64,000 nt of DNA. Source: Comamonadaceae bacterium (GTDB lineage: Bacteria > Pseudomonadota > Gammaproteobacteria > Burkholderiales > Burkholderiaceae_C). The DNA is taken from contig JAIYCB010000008.1 of the NCBI GenBank assembly GCA_027488215.1, forward strand, positions 1 to 64,000, written 5' to 3'. This document shows positions 60,455 through 63,743 of the stretch, in pieces (the stretch's first letter is position 1; every line of letters starts with the position of its first letter). Position numbers and translations under genes: made by a program. Below the pieces are notes generated by a model. That model searched no databases and was not told where the DNA came from. It saw nothing but the letters and a program-made list of their open reading frames with translations.

Positions 60455-61777
60455 TCAATAGGTTTCGAGGTGCAGACGGCCTTCTTTTTTCAGCGCCGCA
60501 CCCACGGTACCCCAATCGAGTCCGGCGTTCTGTGCGATGTCACGCAAGGCCATGACCACGCCTTCCTCCATGCTTTTGAGACCGCAGACATAAAAGCAGG
60601 TGTTCGGGTCCTTGAGCTGCATGGCGATGTCAGCGGCGCGGTCGCGCAATGCATCTTGCACATAACGCTTGGGTTTGCCCACCTCGCGTGAAAAGGCGAA
60701 TTCAATGTCGATGAAGTCCTTGGGCAGGTTGTTCAGCGGGCCGAAGTAAGGCAACTCGGCCGGAGTGCGGGCACCGAAGAACAGCATCAGCTTGCCCCCC
60801 TCGAATTTGCCGCTGGCGCGCAGACGGCGACGCCATTCGGTCATGGCGCGCATCGGGGCGCTGCCTGTGCCGGTGCAAATCATGACGATGTTGCTCTTGG
60901 GGTGGTTGGGCATCAGGAAGCTGGCACCGAAAGGTCCGATCACCTGCACCTTGTCGCCCACATTCAAATCGCACATGTAATTGGAGCCCACACCCCGCAC
61001 AGGCTGGCCGTCGTGGTCTTCGAGCACGCGCTTGATGGTCAACGACAGGTTGTTGTGACCTGGGCGCTCGCCGTTGCGGGGGCTGGCGATCGAGTACTGG
61101 CGTGCATGGTGCGGTTTGCCTTTGGCGTCCATACCCGGCGGAATGATGCCAATCGACTGGCCTTCGAGCACGGGGAAAGGCAAGTTGCCGAAGTCGAGCA
61201 CGATGTGGTGCGTGTCATAGTCTTGTTGACCCTCTTGCTTGCCCACCTCGGTCACACGAAGGTTGCCCGTCACGGTGGCGGTGATGGTTTTGTCTTGCGC
61301 CTTGGGACCGTAAAGGTTGGTATACGCGTGGGCAGCCGACCAAGGTGGAATGGTCGCGCCAAATTGGGCCGAATTGAAACCCGAAGCCACAGCGGTGCTG
61401 GCGGCGGACGACGATGAGGCGGCGGCTTGCACAGCCGCTAGAGCAGCTTCTTGCGCTGCACCCGCATCGCCACCCGTTTCACCTGTTGCTTTAGCCAGTT
61501 CTTCCGCACTCAGCTCAGCAGGAAGTTCGTCCCACTTGAGTTGTTCTTCGATGCTGTAGGCCTTGGCCTTGGGCATCATGCGCCAGTTGTCAATCGAGCC
61601 TGTGGGGCATGGCGAGATGCAGTCCATGCAACCGTTGCAAATGTCGGCCTTGACCACGTAGTTGAGCGAGTCGTGCGTGATCGCGCCCACCGGGCAAATT
61701 GCTTCGCAGGTGTTACAGCGGATGCAAATTTCCGGGTCAATCAGGTGTTGCTTGATCAGCGTCGCTTCAGTGCTCAT
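60455..61777 (-). CDS. boxA: Benzoyl-CoA 2,3-epoxidase reductase subunit BoxA
   Basis: The protein has about 440 residues. The N-terminal double [4Fe-4S] ferredoxin shows [16 protein letters not shown] and [16 protein letters not shown]; an Ala/Ser-rich linker follows; the C-terminal ferredoxin-NADP reductase domain shows [13 protein letters not shown] for FAD and [14 protein letters not shown] for NADPH. It supplies electrons to the BoxB diiron epoxidase. The frame runs upstream to 61894 through a hairpin element, but [21 protein letters not shown] at ATG 61777 is the family start. Three large hairpins separate it from boxB. Confidence 0.95.
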
Positions 61778-61829
61778 GTCTTGGATCTCTTGTTGAGTTT
61801 TCGGCTTTTGTCTTTGGTTTTCGAGGCCC

Positions 61830-61907
61830 GCAACGGTATGGCTTGGGGCCGGGCGCCTCATGCTGGGGTACCAGAAATCGGCGCCCGACCCCAAGCCATA
61901 CCGTTGC
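61830..61907 (-). repeat. 78-bp variable-arm hairpin element 1 (core on minus strand)
   Basis: Two 25-nt complementary arms flank a 28-nt core. Read on the minus strand, the arm starts GCAACGGTATGGCTTGGGG, the core contains GATTTCTGGTACCCCAGCA followed by TGAGG, and the second arm is the reverse complement. One position is a G-T pair on this strand, so the RNA stem would be unbroken; the first three and last three core bases also pair, giving 28 bp. A mini-stem CTGG/CCAG lies inside the core. It sits 52 bases before the boxA ATG. Confidence 0.9.
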
Positions 61908-61962
61908 TCTGTGCCTACTTGGAAGTCGTCAGTCTACCGGTGTCTTTGACTCGCACACCCAT

Positions 61963-62040
61963 GTCATTGAAGGGGCAAGGGGCGGGTGACGATTTTCGGT
62001 ACCCCGTCATGAGGAACCCGCCCCTTGCCCCTTCAATGAC
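61963..62040 (+). repeat. 78-bp variable-arm hairpin element 2 (core on plus strand)
   Basis: The left arm starts at 61963 with GTCATTGAAGGGGCAAGG and ends at 61987; the right arm 62016-62040 is its exact 25-nt reverse complement. The 28-nt core (61988-62015) reads GACGATTTTCGGTACCCC then GTCATGAGGA. Against element 3 the inner mini-stem changes from TGG/CCA to CGG/CCG, a compensatory change. Orientation is opposite to element 1. Confidence 0.9.
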
Positions 62041-62110
62041 CGCCTCAACTCAAGGCAGAACACAGAAACAACCAGCAATAAAGCCACCAACAGACTCAAA
62101 CAAACCCAAT

Positions 62111-62188
62111 GCAGTTGACAGAGGAAGGGGCGGCTGACGATTTCTGGTACCCCAGCATGAGGAACCCGCCCCTTCCTCTGTCAACTGC
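62111..62188 (+). repeat. 78-bp variable-arm hairpin element 3 (core on plus strand)
   Basis: The left arm 62111-62135 starts GCAGTTGACAGAGGAAGGGG; the right arm 62164-62188 pairs with it at 24 of 25 positions, with a C-C mismatch next to the core. The core (62136-62163) is GACGATTTCTGGTACCCCAG then CATGAGGA. The outer arm sequence is unrelated to elements 1 and 2, while the core is nearly identical to both. It lies 43 bases after the boxB stop. Confidence 0.9.
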
Positions 62189-62231
62189 TGCCCCCAACAT
62201 GGAGGCAGCAGTCGATCAAAGATTCAACGCA

Positions 62232-63659
62232 TCAGTTGAAGCGGACGTAATCAAAGTCCACGGGCTGACGGTTGATGCCCATGACGGGTGGCGCGATCCA
62301 GTTGGCGAACTTGCCTGGCTCAACGACACGGCCCATCAGGCTGGCCACATACGCACGGTCTTCGTTGGTCGGCAACCACTCGCCCACTTGCGCCATCCAC
62401 TGTTCGTCGGTCACCACACGGCCATCGGGCGTGATTTTGGAGCCAGACAAGGAGCCGATGTTGCGGTGGAACGCCTTGTGAGGGGCGGTCAGCGTGAAAG
62501 GAATGCCCGCTTTGCTGATCACACGGTTCCAACGGTCGATGCCGCCCTTGGAATCGGTGATGTAGTCGTCGCGCAGCACTTCGTTCAAAGCGTTGAGCAT
62601 CGGCACTTCTTTTTCGATCAGCTTGCCGTCTTCAACGGACAAGATCTTGTAGCTGTTGCCCTTCAAGACGTGGTCATCGTTGCGTTTGCCTTCTTCGTAA
62701 CGGCCCTTGAGGCCCGAGCTGTAGAAGGTCGCAGCGTTCGACGACTCGTCGGCACCGAACAAGTCGATGGTCACCGAGAAGTGGAAGTTGATGTAACGCT
62801 GGATGGTGGGCAGGTCGATCACGCCGGCAGCACGCAGCTTGCCCACGTCGTCGGTTTTCAGCTGGTTCATCACATCGACTGTGCGCTGGATGGTGCGGCT
62901 CACGCCGGACTCGCCCACGAACATGTGGTGCGCTTCTTCGGTCAACATGAACTTGGTGGTGCGGGCCAGGGGGTCGAAAGCCGACTCGGCCAAAGCGCAC
63001 AACTGGAACTTGCCGTCGCGGTCGGTGAAGTAGGTGAACATGAAGAAGGACAACCAGTCGGGGGTCTTCTCGTTGAAGGCCTGCAAGATGCGTGGGTTGT
63101 CTTCGTTGCCGCTGTTGCGCTGCAGCAATGCATCGGCTTCCTCACGGCCGTCTTTGCCGAAGTATTTGTGCAACAGGTACACCATGGCCCACAGGTGACG
63201 GCCTTCTTCGACGTTGATCTGGAACAGGTTGCGCAGGTCGTACATGCTGGGCGCGGTCAAGCCCAGGTGGCGCTGCTGCTCCACCGATGCGGGCTCGGTG
63301 TCACCTTGCGTCACGATGATGCGGCGCAGGTTGGCGCGGTGCTCGCCAGGCACGTCTTGCCAGGCTTTCTCACCGATGTGGTCACCGAAGTGGATCTTGC
63401 GGTCTTGCTCGCCAGGGTTCATGAACACGCCCCAACGGTAGTCACGCATCTTCACGTGGCCAAACTGGGCCCAGCCTTGGGGGTCCACGCTCACCGCCGT
63501 GCGCAGGTACACGTCCATGTCGGTGGAGCCTTCAGGGCCCATGTCATCCCACCAGTTGATGAAGTTGGGCTGCCATTGCTCCAAGGCGCGTTGCAAGGTG
63601 CGGTCTTCCGACAGGTTGACGTTATTGGGGATTTTTTCGCTGTAGTTGATACCGGACAT
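62232..63659 (-). CDS. boxB: Benzoyl-CoA 2,3-epoxidase oxygenase subunit BoxB
   Basis: The diiron monooxygenase has about 475 residues, starting MSGINYSEKIPNNVNL. Metal-ligand helices are visible in INVEEGRHLWAMVYLLHKYFG and LTEEAHHMFVGESGV (E-x-x-H pairs). It inserts one oxygen atom into benzoyl-CoA to give the 2,3-epoxide with electrons from BoxA. The frame extends to 63704, but the GGAG site before ATG 63659 marks the start. boxC lies upstream across a 182-bp gap that contains a REP-like element; boxA follows after three hairpins. Confidence 0.96.
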   Translation of the reverse strand: MSGINYSEKIPNNVNLSEDRTLQRALEQWQPNFINWWDDMGPEGSTDMDVYLRTAVSVDPQGWAQFGHVKMRDYRWGVFMNPGEQDRKIHFGDHIGEKAWQDVPGEHRANLRRIIVTQGDTEPASVEQQRHLGLTAPSMYDLRNLFQINVEEGRHLWAMVYLLHKYFGKDGREEADALLQRNSGNEDNPRILQAFNEKTPDWLSFFMFTYFTDRDGKFQLCALAESAFDPLARTTKFMLTEEAHHMFVGESGVSRTIQRTVDVMNQLKTDDVGKLRAAGVIDLPTIQRYINFHFSVTIDLFGADESSNAATFYSSGLKGRYEEGKRNDDHVLKGNSYKILSVEDGKLIEKEVPMLNALNEVLRDDYITDSKGGIDRWNRVISKAGIPFTLTAPHKAFHRNIGSLSGSKITPDGRVVTDEQWMAQVGEWLPTNEDRAYVASLMGRVVEPGKFANWIAPPVMGINRQPVDFDYVRFN

Positions 63660-63743
63660 GAGAGTCTCCAAGTGGGGTGAGTAAAAAATAACTTCGTTGT
63701 TCAATGGGAAATGTCAAAGAGCGCCTGCAGCACCAGCCCTTGC

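Follow-up and report, generated by a model that had tools for sequence, protein, structure and literature searches.

The Hairpins Between boxB and boxA

The window, meaning the whole stretch of DNA which was analysed, comprises 64,000 nucleotides of a contig from a Comamonadaceae bacterium. Here, boxB and boxA, coding for subunits B and A of benzoyl-CoA 2,3-epoxidase, are separated by a spacer containing three hairpins, designated E1, E2, and E3 (Table 1). In a preliminary description of this DNA, three hairpins of 78 bp had been identified at positions 61830..62188, and their presence was confirmed by an inverted-repeat search, a scan for the core, and folding z-scores. The inverted-repeat search of the window reported E1 with arms of 37 nt which are 86% complementary. 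The core pattern, with up to three mismatches allowed, matched the window only at E1 (on the minus strand), E2, and E3, and gave 0 matches in 100 shuffles. For both strands of the three elements, the folding z-scores ranged from -9.2 to -11.8 for RNA and from -10.0 to -11.4 for DNA.

The opposite orientation ascribed to E1 was also found, its core being located on the minus strand and those of E2 and E3 on the plus strand. The arms are variable and self-complementary as described, but the statement that they differ completely was overstated for E2 and E3, which are 78% alike across 79 nt including the core. In E1, G-C/C-G pairs lie beside the C-G pair of the internal loop, a place taken by G.A/A.G in E2 and E3. 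With a covariance model, 10 copies were identified in the window's own genome.

Table 1: Coordinates of the hairpins and of the genes on both sides of the spacer in the window.
Feature	Position	Strand	Description
boxA, benzoyl-CoA 2,3-epoxidase subunit A	60455-61777	-	TIGR03224, 731 bits; other side of the spacer; start codon picked by hand
Element E1	61830-61907	-	78-nt hairpin; core-bearing (sense) strand is the boxB-boxA mRNA strand
E1 core CGATTT-CTGG-TACC-CCAG-CATGAG	61857-61880	-	internal loop GATTT/CATGA, apical stem CTGG/CCAG
Centre between the divergent hairpins E1(-) and E2(+)	61908-61962	.	55 nt
Element E2	61963-62040	+	25-nt arms 61963-61987 / 62016-62040, 100% complementary, 28 nt between
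E2 core CGATTTTCGGTACCCCGTCATGAG	61990-62013	+	core pattern match
Element E3	62111-62188	+	23-nt arms 62111-62133 / 62166-62188, 100% complementary
E3 core CGATTTCTGGTACCCCAGCATGAG	62138-62161	+	core pattern match
boxB, benzoyl-CoA 2,3-epoxidase subunit B	62232-63704	-	TIGR03225, 893 bits; one side of the spacer

Fold of the Hairpin Family

For 182 elements chosen by the core alone, Watson-Crick pairing amounted to 74-95% at stem positions 1-24, and fell to 56% at position 25, 37% at position 26, and 25% at position 27. The stem thus comprises 24-26 bp, with pairing at background level by position 27, and the fixed length noted for the three copies was borne out. In this search with the core and its flanks, the arms were found to pair, their length was fixed, they were not constant elsewhere, and the core was not confined to the locus.

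Covariation was analysed in an alignment of 80 dissimilar elements which had been pre-filtered for pairing or wobble at 20 or more of the 24 positions. The covariation score was 0.889, compared to 0.185 for shuffled and at most 0.169 for slid alignments, and 938 double-changed cells were counted versus 270 in shuffles. The 90.4% of paired positions in this pre-filtered set is a biased figure, the unfiltered profile being that of the 182 elements. RNAalifold predicted nearly the same fold as the stem model. By the pairing profile and the covariation, the constant centre with variable, self-complementary ends holds for the family as a whole.

A scan for the layout gave 362 hits, 272 of them distinct, and 0 hits in shuffled or reversed sequence. 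The apical stem of 4 bp also covaries, with the types CT/AG (87), GT/AC (42), TC/GT (21), TG/CT (15), and GC/GC (9) among the 182 elements; TC/GT and TG/CT contain one mismatch each. Variants which keep CGATT and ATGAG and have the apical hairpin exchanged were identified in the window's own genome and in others, by scans requiring the CGATT/ATGAG bases with at most one mismatch. The stretch from CGATT to ATGAG is 14 nt long in 348 of the 362 hits and of another length in 14. Since CGATT and ATGAG are kept while the apical hairpin varies, the most constant part of the family is its internal loop, GATTT/YATGA with a closing C-G pair. Beside this loop, many copies contain G.A/A.G and others G-C/C-G instead. 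On their 5' side, the arms have in common an enrichment of G that depends on position.

For the flanks, elements with less than 60 nt of flanking sequence were dropped before counting. In 62 dissimilar elements, neither a strongly conserved column beyond the stem nor a conserved end motif was found, and no motif was kept to the left of the core. A loose enrichment of GCG was present at the stem base (39/74). Behind the hairpin, T accounts for less than 25% at most positions, and a T tract is absent.

Distribution

The exact core GGTACYCCNNCATGAGG was identified in at least 63 of 90 congeneric genomes, and a reversed control pattern in 0 of 90; the 63 are a lower bound, as G001, in which the exact core is missing, has variants of the hairpins at its box locus (L258). 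Within the bacterial family, a longer core was matched with one mismatch in 34 of 399 genomes and in 17 of 141 genera. In a sample of 369 genomes from the class, the same pattern gave two matches, both in the window's own family; the 366 sampled genomes of the other families gave 0, as did one further genome of the own family (G216). Among the matches listed are Limnohabitans, Rhodoferax, Polaromonas, MAGs assigned to Comamonadaceae or Burkholderiales, and a few MAGs under distant names. The hairpins are thus dispersed among relatives of Comamonas from freshwater. MAG contigs with the hairpin family which are labelled Akkermansia (L043, L050) or Cryomorphaceae (L037) are probably binning errors.

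A phage origin was considered and rejected, as the core pattern had 0 exact matches in viral contigs and no phage match was obtained for positions 61820-62200. In a plasmid search with E2 as sole query, 33-nt hits to three Variovorax replicons were obtained (E 0.06). Rfam gave 0 matches in the window at the gathering score, in line with the earlier remark that no named family fits; with E up to 5, 37 matches were listed, nearly all to microRNA models and all below the gathering score.

Pair Geometry and Gene Context

The arrangement of neighbouring elements was analysed for 236 of the 272 distinct elements, after those with less than 500 nt left room or without a neighbouring gene on one side had been dropped. 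A divergent, back-to-back partner within 400 nt was present for 140 of the 236, and a convergent, face-to-face partner for 0; 19 of the 140 have a tandem neighbour besides the divergent one. The same geometry was found in 80 dissimilar elements, with 47 divergent partners, 0 convergent partners, and two elements which are also in tandem. G153, the only genome in its genus, contains 61 copies, and 28 distinct paired units were identified in it, their cores being separated by 155-157 nt. Similarity between these units stops 3-4 nt outside the outer arm, and differences among the copies of G153 take the form of paired changes. The middle between the paired hairpins in L189 and in other units of G153 is an imperfect palindrome around GGTAGCGCGCTACCGGTA.

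Using gene calls from a codon-usage caller instead of annotation, an overlap with a gene of more than 20 nt was found for 5 of 161 elements, which are thus mostly intergenic, and 6 of 161 lie between divergent genes. Of 33 dissimilar solos, 10 lie sense and 11 antisense to both neighbouring genes, while 9 are located between convergent genes and 3 between divergent ones. The seven pairs and six solos of genome G169, looked at for a replication-strand bias, were too few.

The Guarded Strand

Mismatches in the stem were counted on the core-bearing strand of elements with at least 17 of 24 Watson-Crick pairs, as raw counts ignoring kinship. In 105 elements less than 90% alike, isolated mismatches were G.T in 121 cases versus A.C in 16, and G.A in 33 versus T.C in 9. 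Since G.T and G.A tolerated in the folded strand are A.C and T.C in its complement, such an excess marks the strand whose fold is guarded. The bias was present for each orientation to the left and right genes, with ratios of 57:3 for sense-sense, 67:9 for antisense-antisense, 38:8 for convergent, and 5:0 for divergent contexts, and of 25:3 for lone antisense elements. For 56 hairpins of G153, with redundancy kept, the ratios were 77:11 for G.T:A.C and 35:1 for G.A:T.C. The orthologues of E1 at the box locus gave 40:2, and those of E2 and E3 a weak bias of 17:11, which is in part due to recombinant copies. As the bias is present in every gene context, the guarded strand belongs to the element and not to a host transcript. 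The pattern of tolerated mismatches points to an evolutionary preservation of the fold on a single strand, the core-bearing one.

These counts bear on the possibility that the hairpins act in the mRNAs of the flanking genes, as terminators, 3'-end protectors, or attenuators. The mostly intergenic location, the rarity between divergent genes, and the very stable folds would fit such a role. However, the orientation of the elements is independent of transcription, the strand signature is equally strong in antisense copies, and the stem is not followed by a T tract, so that an mRNA role is improbable. Selection on an RNA structure within host mRNA, one of the explanations offered initially, is not upheld, as the strand signature ignores the direction of transcription.

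DNA or RNA as the Folded Molecule

Mutation alone should be symmetric for G.T/A.C and for G.A/T.C, so the ratios measure tolerance of the mismatches. The mean destabilisation calculated with ViennaRNA differs by 4.1 kcal/mol between A.C and G.T and by 0.03 kcal/mol between T.C and G.A for RNA parameters, and by 1.7 and 1.6 kcal/mol, respectively, for DNA parameters. The observed ratios were 7.1 for G.T/A.C and 6.6 for G.A/T.C, with 13:3 for G.G versus C.C and 2:7 for A.A versus T.T. A fit with one free slope resulted in a log likelihood of -118.2 for DNA parameters and -138.4 for RNA parameters; 151 of 162 elements, those of 78 nt, were used for it, and the mean energies were derived from 60 of the 151. 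DNA was ahead by 4.8-19.7 log units in 12 of 12 subsets by redundancy, genome, or stem position, the subset designated 'No G153' leaving out loci L186-L215 only. As controls, terminators provided only two usable mismatches, and other hairpins at the same loci, read on an arbitrary strand, gave 25 G.T versus 24 A.C and 34 G.A versus 20 T.C. On these data, the folded molecule is more probably single-stranded DNA than RNA, as modelled with parameter sets that lack empirical calibration.

A structured RNA produced from each element's sense strand, either an autonomous small RNA or a protein-binding motif, would share with the family covariation and tolerance of G.T, both of which are classical signs of RNA. 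The pairs would then be two RNAs fired outward, and a minus-then-plus pair is indeed kept in 27 of 30 box loci (see below). Solos antisense to both genes are as frequent as sense ones, though, and would require their own promoters, while neither a motif left of the core nor a sigma-70 promoter-like or terminator-like site in positions 61700-62300 was identified, and T is scarce behind the hairpin. Together with the poorer fit of RNA parameters to the mismatch spectrum and the lack of an Rfam match at the gathering score, this renders a structured RNA rather unlikely.

Persistence and Change at Orthologous Sites

At the box locus, for which matches were obtained in 80 of 90 genomes and the best 30 places were examined, hairpins were present in 30 of 30. 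A minus-then-plus pair with starts 133-140 nt apart was found in 27 of the 30; two others end close to the edge of a contig, and a plus hairpin was not recognised in L281. Among the 25 distinct orthologues of E1, 8 of 24 stem positions are occupied by two or more Watson-Crick types; double-changed cells number 24, and 17 of 599 are unpaired. More than one type was found at five stem positions for E3, two for E2, and two for an element at a second locus, the GST locus. Two box loci, L261 and L273, contain a hybrid hairpin with the left arm of E2 and the right arm of E3, and the reciprocal hybrid is located within an array of four in L284; these hybrids are read as products of unequal exchange in the shared core. 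The presence of hairpins in all 30 genomes suggests that they serve a host function rather than being selfish elements, which counts against the REPIN-like reading proposed below.

The GST locus was matched in 76 of 90 genomes, and in the best 30 places examined the element was present in 17 and none was detected in 13. For 12 of these 13 spacers, no arm was recognised by eye in the stretch inspected, which was at most 230 nt long. The remaining one, L340, has kept one arm and contains no core, which fits a deletion and also fits a pre-insertion target.

These loci allow an evaluation of the snap-back copying put forward in the preliminary description, in which insertion of the core is followed by copying of 25 nt of the flank, giving the second arm. 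Snap-back copying would explain the fixed arm length and a spacer such as L340 with its single arm. However, the arms change in pairs at orthologous sites, which is clear for E1 and less so for E3, E2, and the GST-locus element, they share the G-rich bias by position, and a single arm at an empty site was not recognised by eye in 12 of 13 spacers and is ambiguous in L340. Snap-back copying is therefore regarded as highly improbable.

Paired changes can also arise without selection on pairing, by quasi-palindrome correction through template switching, a known mutational process by which neutral palindromes would be kept perfect. The paired changes among paralogous copies within one genome are consistent with such a process. 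Neither the constant internal loop, nor the fixed length, nor a mismatch bias tied to the orientation of the element is predicted by it, however, and as the sole explanation correction is considered improbable.

Candidate Enzymes

For a Y1 transposase, matches were obtained in 32 of 34 genomes, 27 of them with one match and five with two to three. Two genomes, G195 and G364, gave no match, and G195 contains four elements. Nine of these genomes had given no core match when one mismatch was allowed, and the gene was present in eight of them; in the Y1 set, G001, G007, G010, and G019 had been entered as 'without' on the exact-core test alone. As it was found with and without core matches, a RAYT/Y1 transposase is uninformative as a correlate of copy number. 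A reverse transcriptase (PF00078) was matched in 8 of 21 genomes and was rejected as a correlate, since none was found in G153 with its 61 copies, nor in G169, G272, G034, G076, G000, and G308. The idea that a gene for a transposase or reverse transcriptase tracks the copy number was thus abandoned.

In at least 5 of 6 genomes inspected, the Y1 gene adjoins the same neighbour, a putative gltB judged from its first codons, and it is flanked by long TIRs containing GGGGTCAG. In L222, L223, L224, L225, L226, and L227, the Y1 gene is apparently located at one chromosomal site between long TIRs and looks vertically inherited. In a model search with E up to 1, covering 1.9-3.9 kb to the left and right of the Y1 gene in each of six genomes, no hairpin was identified.

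Twelve of the 272 distinct hairpins are located between TIRs of the GGGGTCAGA.CAACATTAAT type, and six more have one such TIR. The Y1 gene of L226 has the same TIR as these TIR-framed hairpins, and those of other genomes have a related one. Each of these TIR-framed hairpins amounts to a miniature element carrying nothing but the hairpin; examples are L046, with the element at approximately 525-606 and flanks of 60 bp, as well as L026, L031, L037, L039, L051, L074, L083, L090, L108, and L118.

Comparison to Known Repeats and Hairpins

In integrons, attC sites form long hairpins of single-stranded DNA in which structure is kept while sequence varies, with the strand chosen via unpaired bases. 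Their core boxes are located at the stem base and their apex is variable. The family described here resembles attC in its long hairpin with kept structure and varying sequence, but constant and variable parts are reversed. A MITE of a DDE transposon has constant terminal inverted repeats and a target duplication, whereas the ends vary among copies here, even within G153. From an intrinsic terminator, the family is distinguished by the missing T tract after the stem.

REP and REPIN sequences, which are associated with the RAYT (TnpA-REP) transposases, are described in the literature as intergenic palindromes with a strong preference for inverted doublets and with compensatory changes; recognition of the REP hairpin takes place on a single DNA strand, and the gene for the Y1 transposase mostly occurs in one copy (PMC3116915, PMC8266576, PMC3733652). 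The family is similar to REPINs in its intergenic location, its paired changes, the mostly single Y1 gene, and its inverted doublets, with 140 of 236 elements having a divergent partner and none a convergent one. On strand-specific recognition as single-stranded DNA, the mismatch bias bears only indirectly. In contrast, the conserved part of REPs is their ends, with a GTAG or CGTC tag, while here the ends are variable, no terminal tag was found, and conservation is centred on an internal loop close to the apex. REP stems are 5-13 bp long, compared to 24-26 bp here, and REP copies flank the RAYT gene, whereas none was detected beside the Y1 gene in the six genomes searched by the model (E up to 1). 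Because of the tag, the stem length, and the gene flanks, membership in REP is not claimed.

For TIRYT transposases and their TIR repeats (TIRtrons), the motif GGGGWSAS is given (PMC3733652). The local Y1 TIRs with the sequence cited above fit this motif, and 12 of 272 hairpins lie inside a TIR pair; the difference is that 260 of the 272 are not framed by a TIR on each side. The Beta-proteobacterial repeat element BRE (Hot et al. 2011, PMC3110155) is reported to be 75-91 bp long, mostly intergenic, and has a GC content of 69%. Its hosts are named there as Comamonadaceae, including Polaromonas, with 29 copies in one strain, and Rhodoferax, and also Bordetella. The repeats of BRE are described as conserved and often in tandem with few nucleotides between them (VNTR), unlike the family described here. 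BRE is possibly an earlier sighting of the family, the likeness and the difference being those of the published description rather than of sequence. The PBC-28-3 RNA motif (PMC8632094) shares its orientation with the downstream gene in nearly all cases and lies next to the start codon of that gene, while orientation is free here. In the accessible portions of the open-licence PMC literature, a description of this hairpin architecture was not found.

Proposed Role of the Internal Loop

E1 to E3 belong to a strand-specific hairpin family of Comamonadaceae-type bacteria which, with a probability of about one half, is a REPIN-like element of single-stranded DNA and has been kept for long at some loci. 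In the working form of this proposal, one strand (GATTT..GGTACY..YATGAG) would be folded as a stem of 24-26 bp, an internal loop, and a short apical hairpin, and the internal loop C-GATTT/YATGA-G could stack as G.A pairs. A putative protein would read the internal loop and act at a fixed distance from it, at the stem base. Recognition of the loop plus a distance would allow any sequence in the arms as long as they are paired, which would give a fixed length with free sequence. Copies would spread rarely via a single-strand route, for which a Y1/HUH-type enzyme would be the obvious candidate, and would then be kept in place, their pairing being preserved by selection or by hairpin-templated correction. 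Neither transposition nor excision of a copy was observed. The single-stranded step, the measuring enzyme, and the movement itself are what we infer here, while the family, its fold, the strand signature, the geometry of the pairs, and the repetition of the paired unit were demonstrated; hairpin mobility on single-stranded DNA, as proposed in the preliminary description, gains support as a class of mechanism.

More tentatively, the family might represent a new class of single-stranded DNA hairpins, in which a non-Watson-Crick internal loop near the apex is recognised, the enzyme gauges a distance of about 25 bp to the base, and the ends are free in sequence, with mismatch spectra telling the folded strand and whether DNA or RNA is folded. 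Recognition of the well-described palindromic repeats of bacteria relies on constant ends or tags, and a constant centre with free arms and a fixed length would imply recognition by shape plus distance. A strand-specific mismatch bias which is alike in sense and antisense contexts is a simple computational sign of a hairpin folded on one strand independently of host transcription, and, if calibrated, would make the question of RNA versus single-stranded DNA testable for palindromes from sequence alone.

In one copy of the family (L240; genome G000, C9:70481-70566), the apical hairpin is exchanged for CGAGCGAAGCGAG, which contains GCGAAGC, presumably a very stable DNA mini-hairpin.
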